A stretch of DNA of 64,000 nt from Ruegeria sp. ANG-S4 (GTDB lineage: Bacteria; Pseudomonadota; Alphaproteobacteria; Rhodobacterales; Rhodobacteraceae), in contig NZ_JWLK01000001.1 of NCBI RefSeq assembly GCF_000814005.1, forward strand, positions 496,001 to 560,000. Reading direction: 5' to 3'. Below the pieces are notes generated by a model that did not search any database, had not been told where the DNA came from, and worked only from the letters and a program-made list of their open reading frames with translations. Of the stretch, positions 12,700 through 53,299 are shown one piece after another (the stretch's first letter is position 1; the number at the start of each line of letters is the position of its first letter). Both the position numbers and the translations under genes were made by a program.

Positions 12700-13647
12700 T
12701 CAGAGTACGGGGGTAAGCAAATCTTGACCGGCGAAGTGAGCGCTCAGATTGTCGCGCATCAACTGTCCCATTGCCTTGCGGGTTTCGATTGTGCCGGAGG
12801 CGTGGTGTGGCTGCAGCAGAACGTTGTCTTGCTCCAGAAATCGGGGATCCAGCGCGGGCTCTCCTTCGAATACATCCAACGCGGCAGAGCCGAGTGTTCC
12901 ATCCTGAAGAGCGGCGATCAGGGCGTCTTCGTCGATGTTTGACGCGCGCGAGATGTTAATGATCATGCCATCAGGGCCAACTGCCTCGATCATGTCATGG
13001 TTGACGATATGCCGCGTTTCAGCAGACGCGGCAAGCGTGACGAACAGGAAATCCGAATGATGCGCCAGTTCCAACGGATCAGCCAGATAAGTCCAGTCGG
13101 GTGCGTAATCCTTCGCGGCGATATCGGTATAGGCGATATCCATATCGAAGCCGGCCAAGCGCTTGCCTACCTCATACCCGATCCTGCCAAGACCAAGAAT
13201 ACCCGCTTTTCGCCCGAAAACGCGCCGTTTCAACGGGTACAAACCTTTGCTGACCCATGATCCGTCGCGTACCCAGCCTTCGGCACCAATCATGCCGCGC
13301 GACTGACACAGCATCATCGCGACGCCCAGGTCCGCGACATCCTGCGTAAGGACGTCCGGTGTGTTGGTCACGCGGATGCCACGCGCGCGACACGCGTCCA
13401 GGTCAACCGCATCGAAACCGACGCCATAGACTGAAATCACTTCGAGCTGGGGGCACGCGGCTATCATGGCGCGGTCTGCGCCAAGCTCGCCCCGTGTCGC
13501 GATCGCACGCACGTCAGGTCCATGTTCTCCAAGAAATGCCGCTTTATCGGTGGCCTCGAACAGACGCTTGACCTCGAACGCGCTTTCAAGGGGTTTCTGG
13601 TCCCATTCAGGATAGGGTCCGACTTGTAGAATGACTGGTTTCGACAC
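12700..13647 (-). CDS. D-2-hydroxyacid dehydrogenase (GhrB-like)
   Basis: 315 residues from a GTG start at 13645-13647; the frame could also start at a TTG at 13668. The NAD-binding motif is GLGRIG. The catalytic triad of the family is visible: Arg in NISRAS, Glu in FEGEP and His in QPHHASG. Relatives reduce glyoxylate, hydroxypyruvate or 2-keto-gluconate. Its place at the head of the unit with idnD suggests 2-keto-sugar acids such as 2-keto- or 2,5-diketo-gluconate (inference). Two LacI-type operators lie 25 to 53 bases upstream. Confidence 0.85.
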   Translation of the reverse strand: MSKPVILQVGPYPEWDQKPLESAFEVKRLFEATDKAAFLGEHGPDVRAIATRGELGADRAMIAACPQLEVISVYGVGFDAVDLDACRARGIRVTNTPDVLTQDVADLGVAMMLCQSRGMIGAEGWVRDGSWVSKGLYPLKRRVFGRKAGILGLGRIGYEVGKRLAGFDMDIAYTDIAAKDYAPDWTYLADPLELAHHSDFLFVTLAASAETRHIVNHDMIEAVGPDGMIINISRASNIDEDALIAALQDGTLGSAALDVFEGEPALDPRFLEQDNVLLQPHHASGTIETRKAMGQLMRDNLSAHFAGQDLLTPVL

Positions 13648-13672
13648 GAGAGAATCCCTGCTTGACAAGTTT

Positions 13673-13700
13673 TGTTATCGGTAACATGTTATCGGTACCA
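13673..13700. promoter_or_regulatory. two abutting LacI-type operators, idn/gnt divergent promoter
   Basis: TGTTATCGGTAACA (13673-13686) and TGTTATCGGTACCA (13687-13700) directly abut. They match the TGTTACC-GGTAACA pattern bound by GntR/IdnR-type LacI proteins. They lie between the hydroxyacid dehydrogenase-idnD unit and the idnO-gntK-lacI operon. The likely binder is the LacI protein at 16249. Confidence 0.82.
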
Positions 13701-13755
13701 CAAAGGCCAAGTCAATGTCTGAGTCAATGTGTGTCTGCGTAACAAAGGAACCGAT

Positions 13756-14520
13756 ATGACCAATCTTTTTTCTCTTTCGGGCCGTCGCGCCTTGATTACC
13801 GGTTCTTCGCAAGGGATCGGATACGCGCTCGCGCGCGGCATGGCAGAAGCAGGGGCCGAGATTGTTCTGAATGGACGCGATGCGGCCAAGCTGGGCACTG
13901 CTGCGGAAAGCCTGCGCTCCGAAGGGGCAACCGTGCACCAACTGGCCTTTGACGCGACGGATCACGAAGGTGTGCGGGCTGCGGTGGACGCGTTTGAAAG
14001 TGGTACTGGCGCTATTGATATTCTGGTGAACAATGCGGGCATGCAGCATCGGACCGAGTTGGAGAATTTTCCGGCGGATGCGTTCGAGAAGCTGTTACAG
14101 ACCAATGTTGCCAGTGTTTTTCACGTCGGTCAGGCAGCAGCCCGGCATATGATCGGACGAGGAAAAGGTAAGATCATCAACATAGCCTCAGTGCAAACAT
14201 CGCTCGCACGGCCGGGAATTGCACCATACACGGCCACCAAAGGGGCGGTGGGCAACCTTACGAAGGGCATGGCGACAGATTGGGCAAAACACGGGCTGCA
14301 ATGCAACGCCATTGCGCCTGGCTACTTTGACACTCCTTTGAATGCAGCCCTTGTGGCTGATCCCGAATTCTCGGCCTGGCTGGAAAAGCGAACGCCAGCG
14401 GGCCGATGGGGGCAGGTTGAGGAACTTGTGGGCGCCTGTGTGTTTCTGGCCTCGGACGCGTCAAGTTTTGTAAATGGCCATACGCTTTACGTGGATGGCG
14501 GCATCACGGCGTCGCTCTGA
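13756..14520 (+). CDS. idnO: gluconate 5-dehydrogenase (SDR)
   Basis: 254-residue classical SDR: cofactor motif GSSQGIG, NNAG, Ser in NIASVQTS, and the catalytic pair in YTATK. The tail ASDASSFVNGHTLYVDGGITAS is typical of IdnO/Gno, which interconverts 5-keto-D-gluconate and D-gluconate. The ATG at 13756 has AAAGGA eight bases upstream; the frame extends nine codons further without support. It opens the operon idnO-gntK-oxidoreductase-barrel protein-lacI. Its stop and the gluconokinase start share one base (TGATG). Confidence 0.87.
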   Translation: MTNLFSLSGRRALITGSSQGIGYALARGMAEAGAEIVLNGRDAAKLGTAAESLRSEGATVHQLAFDATDHEGVRAAVDAFESGTGAIDILVNNAGMQHRTELENFPADAFEKLLQTNVASVFHVGQAAARHMIGRGKGKIINIASVQTSLARPGIAPYTATKGAVGNLTKGMATDWAKHGLQCNAIAPGYFDTPLNAALVADPEFSAWLEKRTPAGRWGQVEELVGACVFLASDASSFVNGHTLYVDGGITASL

Positions 14521-45285: not shown

Positions 45286-46458
45286 CTAAAGTATCAGATC
45301 TTCCACCAGAACGGTCTGGTCCATAAAGACCAGAATGTCGATGTCCTGCAGGCGGTCAAAGCCTTCGTCCACGCCATCAGCGCCACCGCCAGCTGAGTCC
45401 GTGATCCGCAACTCTTGTACAAATTCGTCGCGTGCGCCGTTGTAGACTTCAACGAATTCAAAGGTGTAGTCGCTCATATTGCCTGCATAAACAGCCGTGT
45501 CGCCAAAGTCATCACCTGCCGCACTTCGGCCGAAGCCAAAGATAAAGTCATCGCCTTCGCCACCAAAGAGCGTGTCAGCTCCGCCGCCGCCCATGATGTC
45601 ATCGCTGCCTGCGTTGCCCTTGACGATGTCATTGCCCAGATCACCGATCACAAGGTCGTTTCCTGTGCCGCCTTCAAGGTAATCCTGGCCATCGCCACCA
45701 AGAACGGTGTCGTTTCCGTCGCCGCCAAACACCAGGTCATTCCCGCCGAAACCCTTCAACAGATCATTCCCGCCGTTGCCCAAAATGATGTCGAAGTCGT
45801 CGGTCCCTCTCAGGCTGTCATTGGCGTCATCCCCAATCAAGCCCGCGTCTTGTTCGGAACTGCCGGAGACCAGGGACTCGAAGGTAACCGTCCTATCCGC
45901 AAAGACCAGATGTTCAACGTCCATCAGAACGTCGGTGCCTTCATCGACGCCATCGTCCGTGTTGTTGTCAGTGATGCGAACCGCCAAGACCTTTTCATCG
46001 CGCGCACCATTGTACTTTTCGAACACCTCGATGGTGTAGTCGTTCATGTTGCCTGCATAGATTGCGGCGTCGTCGTCCGGGATCTCATCCCCGACGCTGC
46101 GGGCGTGGCCGTAGATCTCGTCGTCGCCTTCGCCGCCAATGATGACGTCAGACCCAGGCCCCGCCATGATCAGATCATCGCCCGCGCCTGCATCAACGAA
46201 ATCGTCGCCCAAATCCGAAAACAGACGATCATCGCCGCTGCCGCCGAGGAGGAGATCCTCGCCGTCGCCACCGATCACCAGATCATTGCCGTCGCCACCG
46301 GAAAGGAAGTCATTTCCCGCAAATCCTTTCAGTTCATCGTCGTCACCTGCGCCAACGAGGAAGTCGTCGAAAATAGTGCCGCGCAAGCGATCAAACACCT
46401 CGCTTCCGTTGCGAATAACACCCAAACTGATACTATTGATGCTGTTGAAATCTGACAT
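45286..46458 (-). CDS. RTX/hemolysin-type calcium-binding protein, internally duplicated
   Basis: 390 residues. Many GGxGxDxxx nonapeptides form two blocks, each followed by a similar module: YAGNMNDYT near residue 133 with YNGARDE and DGVDEGTD, and YAGNMSDYT near 323 with YNGARDE and DGVDEGFD, then LVF-D-TV. So the protein is a two-fold repeat of about 190 residues. RTX blocks fold on binding Ca2+ outside the cell, and such proteins are usually exported by type 1 secretion through the C-terminus. No secretion ABC genes are adjacent. The ATG at 46456-46458 follows AAGGA; an extra 38 codons upstream look non-coding. Confidence 0.85.
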   Translation of the reverse strand: MSDFNSINSISLGVIRNGSEVFDRLRGTIFDDFLVGAGDDDELKGFAGNDFLSGGDGNDLVIGGDGEDLLLGGSGDDRLFSDLGDDFVDAGAGDDLIMAGPGSDVIIGGEGDDEIYGHARSVGDEIPDDDAAIYAGNMNDYTIEVFEKYNGARDEKVLAVRITDNNTDDGVDEGTDVLMDVEHLVFADRTVTFESLVSGSSEQDAGLIGDDANDSLRGTDDFDIILGNGGNDLLKGFGGNDLVFGGDGNDTVLGGDGQDYLEGGTGNDLVIGDLGNDIVKGNAGSDDIMGGGGADTLFGGEGDDFIFGFGRSAAGDDFGDTAVYAGNMSDYTFEFVEVYNGARDEFVQELRITDSAGGGADGVDEGFDRLQDIDILVFMDQTVLVEDLIL

Positions 46459-47010
46459 TCTTCTATCCTTTTCAGAGGGATCGCATGCGCAAAAGGGCGA
46501 CATGCAAACGAAATCGCAGCTCAGATGCGCCAAGTAGTAGATCAGAACGTTCAAGCGAGGCAGGTCATCCACACATCAGATTGCGCCAAATAGCCCTCAG
46601 AAACTGTAGGCTGGCGGTCGGTGTCCGAGCGTGAGGATCGTAACCAGCAAATTCCGGTCGCTGCGAATGTGACCGCTGATGGAAAACCTAGGAACTTCGG
46701 TCGTAACGGGTCGCAACCCGCCTTGGCTCCCATTTCGCAAATTGCATCAGGTGGGATTGCAACCTCAATTTTTGGCGATTCTCGAATGCAGGACGATTTC
46801 TTAAACAGACCGACATCGGTGCCATCTCAGTATCTTGGGGTGAGTTGGACGACCGTAAGTAAGGTCACAACGCTGGTGCGCTGATGTGTTTGAACTGGTA
46901 AATTTGGTTGGAATTTGCGGGCCATTTGGATACTTGTTTCAAACACAAGCAAGGCCGAGCAGGGCCATGTCATGATCATACTCTATCTAGCCCTAAAGAA
47001 GGACCAGACT
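46459..47010. other. intergenic stretch between RTX gene and Pse cluster
   Basis: About 550 bases. Contains a small GGGTCGCAACCCG inverted repeat near 46709 and short frames on both strands, none with a recognised domain. It should hold the divergent promoters of the RTX gene and the NeuB-like gene. Confidence 0.45.
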
Positions 47011-48054
47011 ATGGCACATGTCCAAATAGGCGACCGCGAAATAGGCGAAGGCCGTCCGATCTTCATAATGGCCGATCTTGGTTTGACGAACGGAGGCGAC
47101 TTGGGCCGCGCCAAGGAATTGATCGCCGTTGCGGCGGATATTGGTGTGGATGCCGTCAAATTCCAGATGATCGAAGCTGAGAGGCTCTTGGGAGATCATA
47201 GTATTGAATACACGTATCCCACGCTCGCGCACGGGCCGCGCACAGAAAACATGTTGGAAATGTTCAAAGGGCTGGAATTTTCCGATGAGGAATGGGCGGA
47301 AATCGTAGCTACCGCGCGCAGCCACGGCATCGATATCATAATAACATCACACTACGAAGGCGCCGTTGCTCGCTGCAATTCATTGGATCTCACTATCAAC
47401 AAGATTTGCACGTGGAGCCTTAGCCACCGTCGAATGATCGAAATGCTGGCCGAAAACGGTAAGCCGCTGATGTTTGATACCGGCACAATTACCCAGTTCG
47501 AACTGCTTAAGCTGGAGGATATCTATCGCAAGGCTGGTGGCGGGCCATTGATTGTTCTGCATGACTTCCACACACCGGAAGAAGAAGACATGAACTTTCG
47601 CGCCTTTGAAGTCTATCGCCAGTTGGGCATGGTTGCTGGTTACACGCCGCAGGGTCGCAGCGACTGGCTGGACTACATGAGCGTTGGATTGGGTGCCAAA
47701 GTGCTCGAAAAAAGACTGACTCTGGATCGAAATACACCCGCAAACGGTCATTGGAAAGCGCACGAGCCTGAGGAGTTCAAAGACTGGTTGGCCAATGTAC
47801 GCCGTTGCGAAACGGCCCTGGGAAGGCCGGTCGTCGAGCCTACCAGGATTGATCGGCGCGATACGAAGCTTTACTATAAATCCGCATTTCTATTGCGTGA
47901 CGTTGAGGCGGGCGCACCCATTCGCCAAGAAGATCTTGAATTCAAGCGGCCTGGCCACGGTGTCAGTTCTCATCAGGTTACCGAGAGGCTTGTGGGTTTT
48001 CCCTATCCACGCGCCTTCAAGGCAGGTGAAATGCTGGAATGGGGACAAGACTAG
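47011..48054 (+). CDS. NeuB-like protein with degenerate metal site
   Basis: 347 residues: TIM-barrel sialic-acid-synthase domain plus a C-terminal SAF (antifreeze-like) domain (DTKLYYKSAFLLRDVEAG, FKRPGHGV). The barrel keeps the PEP-contact Lys in DAVKFQ and in INKICTW. However, the NHNG motif is TNGG (26-29), and both Mn2+-binding His of NeuB are gone: the SDHT position reads S217-D-W219 and the EKH position reads E233-K-R235. The segment between is five residues shorter than in PseI. It therefore may not condense PEP with a sugar, or does so without metal. Start ATG at 47011 after AAGGA. First gene of the Pse cluster; the next gene starts four bases after its stop. Confidence 0.82.
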   Translation: MAHVQIGDREIGEGRPIFIMADLGLTNGGDLGRAKELIAVAADIGVDAVKFQMIEAERLLGDHSIEYTYPTLAHGPRTENMLEMFKGLEFSDEEWAEIVATARSHGIDIIITSHYEGAVARCNSLDLTINKICTWSLSHRRMIEMLAENGKPLMFDTGTITQFELLKLEDIYRKAGGGPLIVLHDFHTPEEEDMNFRAFEVYRQLGMVAGYTPQGRSDWLDYMSVGLGAKVLEKRLTLDRNTPANGHWKAHEPEEFKDWLANVRRCETALGRPVVEPTRIDRRDTKLYYKSAFLLRDVEAGAPIRQEDLEFKRPGHGVSSHQVTERLVGFPYPRAFKAGEMLEWGQD

Positions 48055-48057
48055 AAA

Positions 48058-48777
48058 GTGAACAAGCCCGAGCACAAACAAATTGCTGTGCTTCCTGCGC
48101 GGGGCGGTTCAAAACGTATTCCACGCAAGAACATTGTTGATATCTGCGGTCGGCCTTTGTTGTCTTACCCCATCGAAACCTGCCACTCGGCCGGTATTTT
48201 CTCAGAGATTATTGTTTCAACAGATGACGAAGAGATCGCGGACGTCGCCCGCGAATGGGGCGCGACGGCCGACATGCGGCCGCCCCAACTGGCAGAAGAC
48301 CGAGTTCCAGCGGCCCAAGTCTGCGCAGAACTGCTTGAGCGCAAATTTGCGCCGGAAGATCGGCCGGAAACGTTTTGCCTTGTCTACCCGATGGCAGCCT
48401 TCATGAGTGCCGAAGATTTGATTGAAAGCGCCCGCACTTTAGAAGGGCAAGATGCGGTTCTCGGCGTATCGCACTATCCGTTGCATCCTTACAAGGCACT
48501 CGTGGCAAGAAATGGCCACCTTCATCCTCTTTGGCCCGAAGAAAACAAGCGCCAGTCGCAGACTTACCCCGAGGCATTTGCTGCCAACGGGTCGTTTTGT
48601 TGGGTGCGGACCGAACCCTTTCTGAAGGCTCTTAGCTTTTACCCGTCTCGATTGGCAGGGCATGTCATGCCACCAGACCGAGCGGTGGATATAGATACGC
48701 CTGACGATCTGGCGCGTGCGCGTCAACTCATGCGCTTGCGTCAGCTTGCTGAAGCCGGGGAAGATCACCTTCCATGA
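48058..48777 (+). CDS. pseF: CMP-pseudaminic acid cytidylyltransferase
   Basis: 239 residues, GTG start at 48058 with a weak ribosome binding site; translation probably couples to the gene before. N-terminal nucleotide motif LPARGGSKRIPRKNI is shared by NeuA/PseF proteins. STDDEEIADVA and the DIDTPDDL near the end complete the family. It activates a nonulosonic acid with CTP. PseF is preferred over NeuA because PseG, PseI and PseH-like genes follow. The stop overlaps the PseG start (ATGA). Confidence 0.86.
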   Translation: MNKPEHKQIAVLPARGGSKRIPRKNIVDICGRPLLSYPIETCHSAGIFSEIIVSTDDEEIADVAREWGATADMRPPQLAEDRVPAAQVCAELLERKFAPEDRPETFCLVYPMAAFMSAEDLIESARTLEGQDAVLGVSHYPLHPYKALVARNGHLHPLWPEENKRQSQTYPEAFAANGSFCWVRTEPFLKALSFYPSRLAGHVMPPDRAVDIDTPDDLARARQLMRLRQLAEAGEDHLP

Positions 48778-49877
48778 GGGTTGCTTTTCGGGTCGACGCG
48801 TCGCTGGTGATTGGTACTGGGCATGTCATGCGCTGCCTTACACTGGCGCGAATGCTGGAGGCCCACGGGGCCAGGTGCCATTTCATATGTGCCGATCTGC
48901 CCGGGAACCTTGGTCAGTTCCTCTGTCAAAATGGCGTGTCATTGACACTCTTACCTGCGCCACGGGGCGATGCCGCTGCTCCGCTCGACTATTCCAGTTG
49001 GTCGGGGCTCACTTGGGCGGATGATGCTGAAGCGACGGCTCGGGAATTGCAAAAACAGCCTGCGGATTGGTTGGTTGTGGATCATTACGGGCTGGATGCG
49101 CAGTGGGAGGCCGCAGTGCTGCGCGCCACCGGTGCAAAATGCCTGATTATTGATGATCTCGCCAATCGTCCACATCTCGGCCGTTGGTTGCTGGATCCTG
49201 GCCCGCAACGTACATCCGCTGACTACAAACAGTTTGTGCCGTCAGACTGTGATCTTTTGCTTGGGCCCAGATACGCACTATTGCGCCCTGAGTTTTCGGA
49301 ACTGCGTGATCGTGTTCTGCCGACCCGCAAGAAGCGTTCATTGCGCCATGTTCTTGTGACAATGGGGGGCGTAGATCTTCCCAACGCAAGCAGCGCTATC
49401 TTGTCCTGCCTTGATCGTCTCACGCTTCCTGAAGGGTTCCATGTAACGCTCGTGCTGGGAGGCACAGCTCCGCATTTGGAAAATTTGCGCGCAAGAGCTG
49501 AAGAACTGTCATTTCCTTGCGACATAAAAGTGGATGTTCGGGACTTACATCATCTTATGGCCAAGGCCGATTTGGCAATTGGCGCGGCCGGCGGAACAGC
49601 TTGGGAACGGTGCGTCCTTGGGCTGCCATCATTGATGCTTAGTACGGCCGAGAACCAAATTCCCGCGGCCCGAGCGCTTGAACAGGCAGGCGCGGCGGTG
49701 TCTTTGGGTTTTCTCGCAGATGGGGATGGTTGGGTTGATACTTTAGCTGAGTCTCTGCAACGGGTCCGCAACCCAAGGGTTTTGGCCGAACTGGCCCGCA
49801 ACTCGAGCTCTCTTTGTGATGGGAAAGGTGCGATACGGGTTGAGAAACGGATGCGAGCAGCACTCGAGACGAGCTAA
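48774..49877 (+). CDS. pseG: UDP-sugar hydrolase PseG
   Basis: 367 residues. Starts MRVAFRVDASLVIGTGHVMRCLTLA, the PseG hallmark (G-x-GH-x-MRC with catalytic His), then DHYGLD, and a GT-B-like C-terminal lobe with GAAGGTAWERCVLGLPSL. It removes UDP from UDP-2,4-diacetamido-2,4,6-trideoxy-L-altrose to give the free sugar used by PseI. Four-base overlap with PseF. Confidence 0.9.
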   Translation: MRVAFRVDASLVIGTGHVMRCLTLARMLEAHGARCHFICADLPGNLGQFLCQNGVSLTLLPAPRGDAAAPLDYSSWSGLTWADDAEATARELQKQPADWLVVDHYGLDAQWEAAVLRATGAKCLIIDDLANRPHLGRWLLDPGPQRTSADYKQFVPSDCDLLLGPRYALLRPEFSELRDRVLPTRKKRSLRHVLVTMGGVDLPNASSAILSCLDRLTLPEGFHVTLVLGGTAPHLENLRARAEELSFPCDIKVDVRDLHHLMAKADLAIGAAGGTAWERCVLGLPSLMLSTAENQIPAARALEQAGAAVSLGFLADGDGWVDTLAESLQRVRNPRVLAELARNSSSLCDGKGAIRVEKRMRAALETS

Positions 49878-49973
49878 CAACGCGTCTGCGCCCTAGTGCT
49901 CATAGAGTTGCATGAAAGGTTGATTTCGACCAGAACGGGGCGCAGTCGTTAAAGAGCGGGGAGCGGCAAGACG

Positions 49974-51059
49974 ATGAAAACAGTCAACGACATCAACATC
50001 GACGGCAGACCAATAGGGCAGAGCCATCCTCCGTACGTAATTGCCGAGCTGTCCGCAAATCACAACGGTGATCTCTATACTGCACTCTTGCTGATCGACA
50101 AGGCGGTGGAAGCAGGCGCTGATGCGATCAAGATTCAGACCTACCGCGCCGACACAATCACACTTCCATCAGAGAAGCCGGAATTTCAGATCAATTCCGG
50201 GCTGTGGAAAGGACGCACGTTGCACGAGCTTTATGAGTGGGCGCATACGCCTTGGGACTGGCACCAAGCGCTTTTTGATCACGCTCGGGAACGCGGCATC
50301 ACAATGTTCAGTTCTCCTTTCGACAAGACGGCCGTTGATTTCCTGGATGAATTGTCTGCGCCTGCCTTTAAGATTGCCTCATTCGAGGCCATCGATCTGC
50401 CGCTGATCCGCTATGTGGCCGGGAAGGGAAAGCCCATGATCATATCTACAGGCATGGCTGATCGTGACGAAATCGCCGAAGCGATCACTGCGGCGCGTGA
50501 CGGTGGTTGCAAAGAGCTGGTTTTGCTTCATTGTGTATCGGGTTATCCTGCTCCGCCTTCGGACTACAACCTGTCAACTATGGCGGATATTGCAGCCAGG
50601 TTTGACGTGCTTACAGGCCTTTCGGACCACACGATAGACAACACGACGGCTGTAGCTTCTGTTGCGCTTGGTGGTGTGGTGATCGAAAAGCACTTGACGC
50701 TTGACCGCGACGGTGGTGGGCCTGACGATAGTTTCTCCCTAGAGCCAGTGGATCTTGCGGCACTGTGTCGTGATGCGCGAACTGCTTGGGAAGCAATCGG
50801 CCACGTCGACTATGGCCGCAAATCCTCCGAACGTGAAAACGTCAAGTTTCGTCGCTCGCTTTACTTCTGCGAGGATATCGAGGCTGGACAAACGATCACC
50901 GAAGCCATGGTGCGCAGCGTGCGTCCGGGGTATGGATTGGCGCCGAAGTATTTGAATGAAGTGATAGGCAGCCAAGCAACCGTGGCCATAAAGAAGTATA
51001 CAGCTGTGGCTTGGGATATGATTTCCGCAGGAACACAACGAACGAAAAACCCGTCTTGA
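49974..51059 (+). CDS. pseI: pseudaminic acid synthase
   Basis: 361 residues, NeuB family with all key motifs: AELSANHNGD, DAIKIQTYRAD, FKIASFEAIDLP, GLSDHTIDN and VIEKHLTLDRDGGGPDDSFS, and a SAF domain (RRSLYFCEDIEAG, RPGYG). The D-GGGPD-F segment is typical of PseI. It condenses PEP with 2,4-diacetamido-2,4,6-trideoxy-altrose to pseudaminic acid. 96 bases separate it from PseG. Useful internal control for the degenerate NeuB-like protein at 47011. Confidence 0.92.
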   Translation: MKTVNDINIDGRPIGQSHPPYVIAELSANHNGDLYTALLLIDKAVEAGADAIKIQTYRADTITLPSEKPEFQINSGLWKGRTLHELYEWAHTPWDWHQALFDHARERGITMFSSPFDKTAVDFLDELSAPAFKIASFEAIDLPLIRYVAGKGKPMIISTGMADRDEIAEAITAARDGGCKELVLLHCVSGYPAPPSDYNLSTMADIAARFDVLTGLSDHTIDNTTAVASVALGGVVIEKHLTLDRDGGGPDDSFSLEPVDLAALCRDARTAWEAIGHVDYGRKSSERENVKFRRSLYFCEDIEAGQTITEAMVRSVRPGYGLAPKYLNEVIGSQATVAIKKYTAVAWDMISAGTQRTKNPS

Positions 51060-51309
51060 GACTGGAACGTATGAACCGCTTTCAGTCTGTATCGTCGGAT
51101 GTGGCGCGTCTACATTCGTTCCGATGGCGTAAACTTCTGATCAGGAAACCGTTTACTTGGCCAGAGTCTTCACTGCCCCTATAAAAAAATTACTTTGAAT
51201 AACTTGTTTCGTCGCGTTCCTTGTTCAGCGAAGGTGTGTGCAGGTTTGATGTCTTGACTTGCTAGGCAATCGGCCATCATTGGATTGAATTGAAACAAGG
51301 CGATGAGAA

Positions 51310-51813
51310 ATGGCGACCTTCAATACACCCGCTTCAGCGATCGAGGTTAGGCTCGCTTTAGAAGAAGACAGTCGTTGGATTTTTTCTTGGCGAAATGACC
51401 CTGTCACACGCGAAATGTCTCATACCCACAATCCGATTTCCTGGGAAGATCACAGGGTTTGGTTCGACGAAGCGCTGAATAACCCTGCCCGCTGCCTGTT
51501 GATGTGTTCAAATGCTCAACGCAGGGTGGCTGTTACGAGGTTTGATCTACTTACGCACGAAGCTCTGGTTTCGATTAACCTTGATCCTGATTTGCGGGGC
51601 CAAGGATTGGGCAAAGTATCCCTTGAAGCGGCGATTGCCTATTTCAATGCGTTGCATGTCAAGTCTTATGATCTGCTGGCGGAAATCAAACGCCACAATC
51701 TGCCCAGCCGACGTGTCTTCGAAGCGTGTGAATTTATTCTTGAACGAGAAGACCAAGCAACAGCCTACTACAGGCGTCTAACGCGTGACCGAGCGGACAG
51801 AACTGGATTCTAA
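51310..51813 (+). CDS. pseH: GNAT N-acetyltransferase, PseH-like
   Basis: 167 residues. AIEVRLALEEDSRWIFSWRNDPVTREMSHTHNPISWEDHRVWF is the PseH/WecD-like N-terminus. The acetyl-CoA loop is LDPDLRGQGLGKVSLEAAI, followed by AEIKRHNLPSRRVFEACEF. PseH acetylates the 4-amino group before PseG acts. The 250 bases upstream hold no gene. Confidence 0.78.
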   Translation: MATFNTPASAIEVRLALEEDSRWIFSWRNDPVTREMSHTHNPISWEDHRVWFDEALNNPARCLLMCSNAQRRVAVTRFDLLTHEALVSINLDPDLRGQGLGKVSLEAAIAYFNALHVKSYDLLAEIKRHNLPSRRVFEACEFILEREDQATAYYRRLTRDRADRTGF

Positions 51814-52141
51814 ATGACAGCCAAAAAACTGAGTTTCTGCCTCTCTGTCTGAGCAGTTGGTGCAGGCGCCACTTTATTGTCCTGAAACATCTGTAAAAAA
51901 CCAATCAGCGGCGGTTGTTATTCCTTCGAAAGTCGAAACACATTGTAGCATCAAAGGGTTTTGGTCCAGGTGCTCGGCAAGGCGGTTCTAATGACGCCGT
52001 TTGTTGAGTTTTCTCGATATCGGTGTTGATCTGATCCTATAGCCAGGTTTTTGGTTGCCGGATTGGCAGTAGCCTTAAGGCACACTATCTGCGCTGCACC
52101 ATGCATTGACCCGCGCTCTGTTGGGATGTGATGGTTTTTGA
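51814..52141. other. intergenic stretch, nothing recognised
   Basis: About 330 bases with stops in all frames. No hairpin or repeat stood out. Probably contains the promoter of the amine oxidase gene. Confidence 0.4.
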
Positions 52142-53299
52142 ATGATCAATCGAAGAAGATTCACAAGCGCGACGCTGGCTTTTGCAGCGGCAAGCCCAAA
52201 CATCTTGCGGGCGGGGCGGCCTAACGGTGTTGTGGTTGTCGGAGCCGGAGCCGCCGGCTTAACGGCGGCTTACCACCTGAGGCGCGCGGGACTTGATGTG
52301 CAGTTGCTGGAAGCGTCAAATCGGTGGGGCGGGCGGATTCGGCGGCTTTCGGGCTTCTGTGATGTTCCATTGGACCTTGGCGCAGAATGGATTCACGACG
52401 ACCCAACGGTGTTGGGTGAGATCATTGGTCAGGGGGCAGACACGCTGGGCATTGCAACCCTTGAGTACCGACCGGAAACCTACCAGTTCTGGCAGAACGG
52501 GCGGCTGCGTGATTTCAACCTGCTGCGTCATGCCTACGCCGAGGTAAAGTTCTATGACACAACCTGGTACGGCTTCTTTGAGCGCTTTGTGCTGCCAAGT
52601 GTCAAAGACACGCTTCGTTTGAACACTCCGGTAAGCCTCGTCGATCTGAGTGGTGATGGCGTTGCGGTGCGGACAATTTCGGGACAGGTTTTTCAAGCCG
52701 ACAAAGTGCTGGTCACAGCGCCGCTCTCGATCTTGCAAACGGGGCAGATCATAATCTCTTCTGCGGCGACCAAGGCGCGGTTAAAAGAGCTTCGTAACAT
52801 CCAGTTCGGTGTTGGCTTCAAGGTCTTCATGAAATTCCGTGAGCGTTTCTATCCCGACATTCTGTTTGAAGGATCGCGGCTGAGTGCGCTGTCCGATGGC
52901 TGGAATGAGAAAACCTATTATGACGCGGCCTTCGGCAAGCCCACGGATGAAAACCTTTTGGGGCTTTTTACGGCTTGGGACACGCCAATTCCAAGGTCTG
53001 CCCTGAGCCGGCCAGAGTTGGTCCAGGACGTTTTGCTGGAACTGGAAGAGATGTTTGGCGATGTCGTAGGCCAAAGCCTCGTTTCAGCGCAGGCGCAAAA
53101 CTGGACCAAGGAGCCTTTCATAGAAGGCAGTTATTCGATGTCCAACTTCGGATCGTCGGACATACATGACATCCTGTCGCCGGTTTCGAACAAGCTCTAT
53201 TTCGCGGGTGAGGCATTGGGGGGCGAGGCCCAATCCACGGTGCATGGCGCGGCGTTTTCTGCGATCGATACGGTCAGGGCCATTCTTGACCGTCAATAG
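52142..53299 (+). CDS. flavin-containing amine oxidase-like protein
   Basis: 385 residues. N-terminus INRRRFTSATLAFAAA resembles a twin-arginine signal. FAD motif VVVGAGAAGLTAAYHLRRAG, then LLEASNRWGGRIRR, LDLGAEWIH, and the C-terminal FAD-contact YFAGEALGGEAQSTVHGAAFSA. This is the monoamine/polyamine oxidase family; at 385 residues it is shorter than average. Substrate not readable. Monocistronic. Confidence 0.86.
   Translation: MINRRRFTSATLAFAAASPNILRAGRPNGVVVVGAGAAGLTAAYHLRRAGLDVQLLEASNRWGGRIRRLSGFCDVPLDLGAEWIHDDPTVLGEIIGQGADTLGIATLEYRPETYQFWQNGRLRDFNLLRHAYAEVKFYDTTWYGFFERFVLPSVKDTLRLNTPVSLVDLSGDGVAVRTISGQVFQADKVLVTAPLSILQTGQIIISSAATKARLKELRNIQFGVGFKVFMKFRERFYPDILFEGSRLSALSDGWNEKTYYDAAFGKPTDENLLGLFTAWDTPIPRSALSRPELVQDVLLELEEMFGDVVGQSLVSAQAQNWTKEPFIEGSYSMSNFGSSDIHDILSPVSNKLYFAGEALGGEAQSTVHGAAFSAIDTVRAILDRQ

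Follow-up and report, generated by a model that had tools for sequence, protein, structure and literature searches.

A conserved protein of predicted NeuB fold without the usual metal-binding histidines is encoded near pseI in bacterial pseudaminic acid gene clusters

Introduction

The closest described relatives of the protein considered here are the sialic acid synthase NeuB, represented by the N. meningitidis enzyme (NmeNeuB), and the pseudaminic acid synthase PseI. PMC7591256 mentions the Mn2+-binding histidine pair of NeuB and proposes NeuB-type genes as markers of nonulosonic acid production. In PMC6795526, His215 is named among the active-site residues of NmeNeuB, and domain swapping in this enzyme is described together with the role of Arg314, the arginine of the SAF domain that reaches the other subunit of the dimer. 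A precedent for variable metal dependence comes from the KDO8P synthases, among which metal and non-metal forms both exist according to PMC3052366.

Here we analyse a protein, hereafter X, encoded in a 64,000-nucleotide stretch of the genome of Ruegeria sp. ANG-S4 (contig NZ_JWLK01000001.1, positions 496,001 to 560,000; "the window", to which unprefixed coordinates refer). X is a real, conserved NeuB variant, no description of which was found in the open-access literature searched; nor did that literature yield any report of a NeuB-family protein lacking both histidines.

Results

Gene and predicted fold of X

The gene and the codons at its two metal positions are as follows:

47011..48054, + strand: X, protein of NeuB fold with Gln214 and Arg235 in place of the two metal histidines; intact frame of 347 amino acids
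47650..47652, + strand: codon of Gln214, equivalent to the metal histidine of SDH (numbered from the start codon; equivalence from alignments)
47713..47715, + strand: codon of Arg235, equivalent to the metal histidine of EKH (numbered from the start codon; equivalence from alignments)

The Pfam family NeuB (PF03102) matches X with an E-value of 3.5e-34 and 118.8 bits against a curated cut-off of 22.1. The NCBIfam models of NeuB (TIGR03569, 149.5 bits) and PseI (TIGR03586, 115.6 bits) score under their equivalog cut-offs of 399.65 and 340.25 bits, respectively. The C-terminal SAF region gives no Pfam SAF match at 0.001; structural and sequence alignments cover this region, including Arg313. The AlphaFold2 model of X, calculated from a 12-sequence input, has a mean pLDDT of 89.2 and a pTM of 0.83. 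Its top match in the PDB is NmeNeuB 1xuu, aligned over the full length (TM 0.83, 349 columns), and C. jejuni PseI 8h2c gives a TM of 0.81; DAH7P and KDO8P synthases come next after NeuB and PseI, with TM values of about 0.55–0.61. As judged by this model, X is a full-length NeuB-fold protein. A search of solved structures with the X profile hit eight distinct sequences, which carry the labels NeuB, PseI or SpsE, and no X-type structure stood out among the best five alignments. A scan of 46500–52150 for sigma-70-type sites found none on the + strand and two in all, both on the − strand, with 3.3 expected by chance.

Relatives and distribution

A collection of 84,980 species, scanned with two peptide patterns only, yielded five X loci, listed with the identity of their X to that of the window:

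L017, uncultured Tateyamaria: 90%
L018, Ruegeria atlantica: 70%
L019, Ruegeria ANG-R: 69%
L020, SAR116: 52% (54% over the best segment)
L021, Patescibacteria: 30%

The X group comprises eight proteins, namely X of the window, the four alphaproteobacterial orthologues (90, 70, 69 and 52%) and three Patescibacterial relatives (30–32%). Searches by taxonomic rank covered samples and not all genomes. In the genus sample X is present in two of 51 genomes, including its own (the window genome and genome G681 belong to the same genus group), and the proteins matched in the two further genomes are of canonical type. The own genome is the sole match among 295 of the family at 1e-40. Nine of 385 genomes match in the class sample (1e-36) and 16 of 398 in the phylum sample (1e-55), with X in none of the eight and 15 others, respectively. 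In the phylum of L021, nine of 286 genomes match at 1e-55: three contain X (G1072, which holds L021, G1276 and G1168) and six keep the second histidine. Among the 49 genomes sampled from the class of G1276, only G1276 itself matches at 1e-75. X is rare and occurs across two distant phyla.

Carriage of X on mobile elements was considered and rejected on the following records. The one phage record that matched is 21% identical to X, two scans of viral contigs gave no confirmed relative, and the plasmid matches listed (40 of 78 and 20 of 53 records) are about 25–33% identical; the four plasmid matches whose motifs were read (L022–L025) all have SDH and EKH.

Metal site

X was compared with canonical NeuB-family proteins and with a second group, T (L006, L010, L027, L029, L033 and L035), whose members belong to the NeuB family, keep SDH and have EKT for EKH. 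The set contains 47 sequences (eight X, six T, and 10 PseI with 23 others as the 33 canonical proteins), the T and canonical sequences being drawn from searches with score cut-offs and not forming a random sample. Excluded from the counts and from the tree were L014 (the same gene as PseI_L019), the plasmid sequences L022–L025, the near copies L039 and L061, the repeat copies L001, L002, L026 and L042–L049, and PseI matches fetched later.

Alignments of X alone and of the X profile to NmeNeuB and C. jejuni PseI are gap-free at the metal site. His215 of NmeNeuB aligns with Gln214 of X (motif TPQ) and His236 with Arg235 (motif EKR), these two histidines being the Mn2+ ligands of NmeNeuB. The earlier sequence-only reading of the locus had placed Arg235 at the EKH histidine, as both alignments confirm, and Trp219 at the SDH histidine, where they give Gln214; "SDW" had been paired with "SDH" by eye. 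That reading also made X five residues shorter between the metal positions. The spacing is in fact 21 residues in all eight X and all six T proteins as well as in 31 of the 33 canonical ones. Given the gap-free alignments and the equal spacing, Trp219 and the shortening were an alignment slip. The pair of substitutions is not Trp/Arg but Gln/Arg in the five alphaproteobacterial X, and Ser, Pro or Lys with Arg in the three Patescibacterial ones. The reported loss of NHNG was borne out, this position reading TNGG in register. No histidine is found at the SDH position and Arg235 occupies that of EKH; both histidines are absent from 8/8 X, 0/6 T and 0/33 canonical proteins, and substitutions of this kind are shared by seven relatives from other genomes instead of being confined to one sequence. 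The loss of the Mn2+ histidines from X is real.

SDN replaces SDH in three of the 33 canonical proteins (two Patescibacterial PseI of X-bearing loci and L062), so the first metal position varies elsewhere too. These Patescibacterial PseI-type proteins with SDN (L021:3613-4755, L065:15122-16249 and L062) are otherwise PseI-like.

Residues of the pocket

The lysines near PEP had been described as kept, and Lys50 and Lys131 of X do match the two NeuB lysines; Arg313 aligns with Arg314 of NmeNeuB. Lys50, Thr112, Lys131, Glu233 and Arg313 (Lys53, Thr110, Lys129, Glu234 and Arg314 in NmeNeuB) are present in all eight X, and Gln52 in seven of them. Asn29, Ser154 and Tyr186 of NmeNeuB are replaced by Thr26, Asp156 and His187; the Ser154 position is presumably the one that binds the PEP phosphate. 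At the position of Glu25 the five alphaproteobacterial X have Asp22 and the three Patescibacterial ones Glu. Several residues are fixed within the group: Trp135, Arg235 and Asp281 occur in 8/8 X, His187 and Thr188 in the 7/7 X readable there, and none of the five occurs in any T or canonical protein (0/6 and 0/33). Thr26, Asp156 and Asp221 are found in 14/14 proteins of X and T together and in 0/33 canonical ones. Among the canonical proteins 39 columns reach a conservation of 90% or more, and only 12 of these are retained throughout all eight X.

Grouping of X and T

In the 47-sequence tree the X group has a support of 100/99, the T group of 100/100, and the split of X and T from the 33 canonical proteins of 99/97. 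After removal of 26 active-site columns and the long-branch sequence c_L013, this split keeps a support of 98/87 and appears in 97% of 200 bootstrap trees. The tree is unrooted, and X with T forms a clade provided that the root falls on the canonical side of this split. By its motifs (TPQ and EKR, not SDH and EKT) X is not a member of T, and the two are separate groups in the trees. T resembles X in Thr26, Asp156 and Asp221, in the lost EKH histidine and in its grouping, and differs from it in retaining the SDH histidine, the Tyr186 position and Glu25. With one histidine lost and three new residues shared, T looks, on these sequences, like a step toward X.

PseI is found over the cut-off in 4/6 T genomes. 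In four of the six, the contig that carries T also has a PseI-type gene no more than about 8 kb away (L051, L053, where it scores just below the cut-off, L054 and L055), and no PseI is near T in L050 and L052. The pseC gene immediately precedes T in L051 and L053. No description of the function of the T group was found.

Conservation

Comparison of the window with L017 gives identities of 90% for X, 79% for PseI, 68% for PseF and 59% for PseG. The corresponding pN/pS values of 0.09, 0.18, 0.26 and 0.39 are ratios of raw proportions and not dN/dS estimates, synonymous change being saturated in most pairs. Between L018 and L019 the identity is 90% for X and 83% for PseI. By these comparisons X is under purifying selection and is not decaying.

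Gene neighbourhood

Downstream of X the window contains the following genes:

48058..48777, + strand: pseF-like CMP-sugar synthetase, 3 nt after X; TIGR03584 183.9 bits, under the cut-off of 205.7
48774..49877, + strand: pseG, UDP-sugar hydrolase; TIGR03590 298.5 bits, over the cut-off
49974..51059, + strand: pseI, pseudaminic acid synthase of canonical type (NHNG, SDH and EKH present); TIGR03586 482 bits, over the cut-off
51310..51813, + strand: pseH-like N-acetyltransferase; TIGR03585 54.3 bits, under the cut-off of 93.1

X does come first in this cluster, as was proposed, at a distance of 3 nt and not four from the GTG start of pseF. The best pseB match of the genome (515 bits) is on a separate contig, C2, followed by pseC and with the Pse-associated methylase TIGR03587 nearby. 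The Pse pathway of this genome is thus carried by two contigs, the window (47011–51813, X-pseF-pseG-pseI-pseH) and C2 (L090:6076-10693, pseB-pseC and methylase). In L017 there is a single cluster, pseB-pseC-X-pseF-pseG-pseI-methylase-pseH, in which pseB, pseC and pseH are named by similarity and position.

X is paired with a canonical pseI, which lies within about 5 kb of it in 8/8 loci. In all six genomes checked (the own genome, G681 and those of L017, L018, L020 and L021), X and one further NeuB-family protein are the sole matches at the thresholds used. The pseC gene stands immediately before X in L017, L018 and L019 (3/8), and one CMP-sugar synthetase is seen beside X in the window, L017 and L019. 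Within the loci examined, the methylase TIGR03587 is over the cut-off in the own genome, L017, L015, L020 and L065.

PseG was matched in three of the eight X genomes and not in G681, G1072, G1075, G1276 and G1168. The idea that X replaces PseG was rejected, as X and PseG occur together in the window genome and in those of L017 and L020, the last with a PseG match under the cut-off. A general link of X with the N-acetyl sugar amidotransferase WbuX was likewise rejected, WbuX being over the cut-off in just 4/8 X genomes.

Several neighbouring genes may be recorded here. A DUF218 protein is encoded inside the pse cluster of three PseG-less X genomes (L015:11695-12273, − strand; L021:4764-5399; L065:8553-9137), and it is a candidate substitute for PseG in those three loci. 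Three X loci encode small proteins of formyltransferase type next to pseI or not far from it (L015, from ANG-R, 13343-13969, − strand; L020:12198-12803; L065:16254-16766), which suggests N-formyl variants of Pse. A protein of 521–567 amino acids adjoins pseB in three X genomes (L017:3679-5382, L015:9254-10819 and L090:6774-8402, all on the − strand) with 37–38% identity; the two copies scanned gave no Pfam family over the cut-off, and it is possibly a glycosyltransferase. Just upstream of X on the opposite strand, 45286–46572 (−) encodes many repeats of GGxGxD type, by eye RTX-like calcium-binding motifs.

Discussion

The sequence-only reading offered three roles for X, namely synthesis of a different nonulosonic acid, a regulatory or scaffold function, or metal-free chemistry. 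Sequence cannot separate them, and altered catalysis is ranked first. We tentatively take X for a rebuilt NeuB-type synthase of Pse-type pathways that works without the usual Mn2+ ligands, in the manner of non-metal KDO8P synthases, to which reading we give slightly less than an even chance. On this view X would belong to a lineage that has replaced its Mn2+ site, and would serve as the second NeuB-fold enzyme in a pathway of pseudaminic-acid type. Pocket residues that hold the substrates in NeuB are kept (Lys50, Gln52, Thr112, Lys131, Glu233 and, from the swapped SAF-like domain, Arg313), and X would most likely still carry out an aldol-type condensation, or a close variant of it, on a deoxy-amino-hexose of the Pse pathway. 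Arg235, Asp156 and His187 may take over the work of the metal or build a different metal site. Loss of the histidines could have been stepwise, with T lacking the second one only and grouping with X.

Catalysis by X, its use of PEP and its independence of metal are what we infer from the predicted full-length NeuB fold, the retained pocket residues, the new fixed set and a conservation exceeding that of PseI, PseF and PseG. In Caulobacter NeuB the variant H245A, altered at a Mn2+ histidine, retains partial activity and E30A and R322A are dead, as reported in PMC7591256. From its distance to R322, H245 is probably the equivalent of His236. Against the rebuilt synthase speak the low number of canonical conserved columns kept in all eight X (12/39) and the presence of PseI in every X genome examined. 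The strongest points against simple PEP chemistry are Asp156 at the presumed PEP-phosphate position and, in the alphaproteobacterial X, Asp22 for the Glu that is essential in Caulobacter. In the window, L017 and L019 only one CMP-sugar synthetase was seen near X, which gives no obvious sign of another nonulosonic acid with an activation step of its own.

The rebuilt synthase is favoured over two other functional readings. It is somewhat improbable that X has been repurposed within the same pathway for a different reaction that dispenses with PEP, e.g. epimerisation, a retro-aldol/aldol exchange or modification of Pse or of the free sugar. The replacement of Ser154 by Asp156 and the loss of both histidines and of the Asn29 and Tyr186 positions would fit such a change, as would the canonical PseI always found beside X, by which PEP condensation is already covered; yet all eight X retain both lysines as well as Thr112, Glu233 and Arg313, and the neighbouring genes name no missing step. 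We consider it improbable that X serves PseI as a regulatory or non-catalytic partner, forming a heterodimer in which its Arg313 caps PseI. The constant proximity to pseI, the restriction of NeuB-family matches to X and one further protein in 6/6 genomes and the presence in 8/8 X of Arg313, the residue acting across the dimer, are in line with a partner. Against it, the pocket lysines and a new invariant set of pocket residues would have no obvious use in a partner, PseI is less conserved than X, and two of the six T genes have no PseI nearby. If X were nonetheless a partner of PseI, it would make a paralogue-controlled nonulosonic acid synthase, none of which was met in the open-access literature searched.

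Decay, a sequencing error or misalignment, which the histidine loss itself and a partly wrong first alignment might bring to mind, is hardly credible. The same residues occur in assemblies of other organisms, pN/pS is 0.09 against L017, the alignments are gap-free at the site, and the orthologues with the same residues refute this reading. The sequence-only reading had already held that X is no decaying relic, with which agree the seven relatives in other genomes bearing like substitutions and the slower change of X compared to PseI, PseF and PseG. X as a dead relic is excluded in practice. As proteins of this kind also occur in a small number of other marine bacteria and in the Patescibacteria, X is probably functional, with its chemistry altered.

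Going further, it is possible, if doubtful, that X represents a branch of the NeuB family that does without metal, with T, in which one metal histidine is lost, as its living intermediate and with Thr26, Asp156 and Asp221 as shared new residues. If true, nonulosonic acid synthases would have made a transition from metal to non-metal like that of KDO8P synthases, via other residues. The Mn2+ histidines are counted as catalytic; because a conserved lineage spread over two distant phyla lacks them, the metal site should be inspected when nonulosonic acid production is predicted from NeuB-type genes. X with no histidine, T with one and PseI with two, in comparable clusters, form a natural test of the role of the metal.

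Comparison with known systems

PseI (TIGR03586; C. jejuni, PDB 8h2c) resembles X in its fold (TM 0.81), the gene cluster, the two lysines, the Glu of EKH and the SAF arginine. The C. jejuni protein is about 23% identical to X, in which both metal histidines, NHNG and the Ser154 and Tyr186 positions are replaced. The sialic acid synthase NeuB (TIGR03569; NmeNeuB, PDB 1xuu) shares the full-length fold (TM 0.83) and aligns without gaps at the metal site; it is 21% identical to X and has the metal histidines absent from X. KDO8P synthase, whose substrate is a phosphosugar, belongs to another family, with a TM normalised by X of about 0.55–0.60, about 10–15% identity and other residues. The non-metal KDO8P synthase is like X in being of related fold, and is a PEP-using synthase from a family within which metal dependence differs, as stated in PMC3052366.
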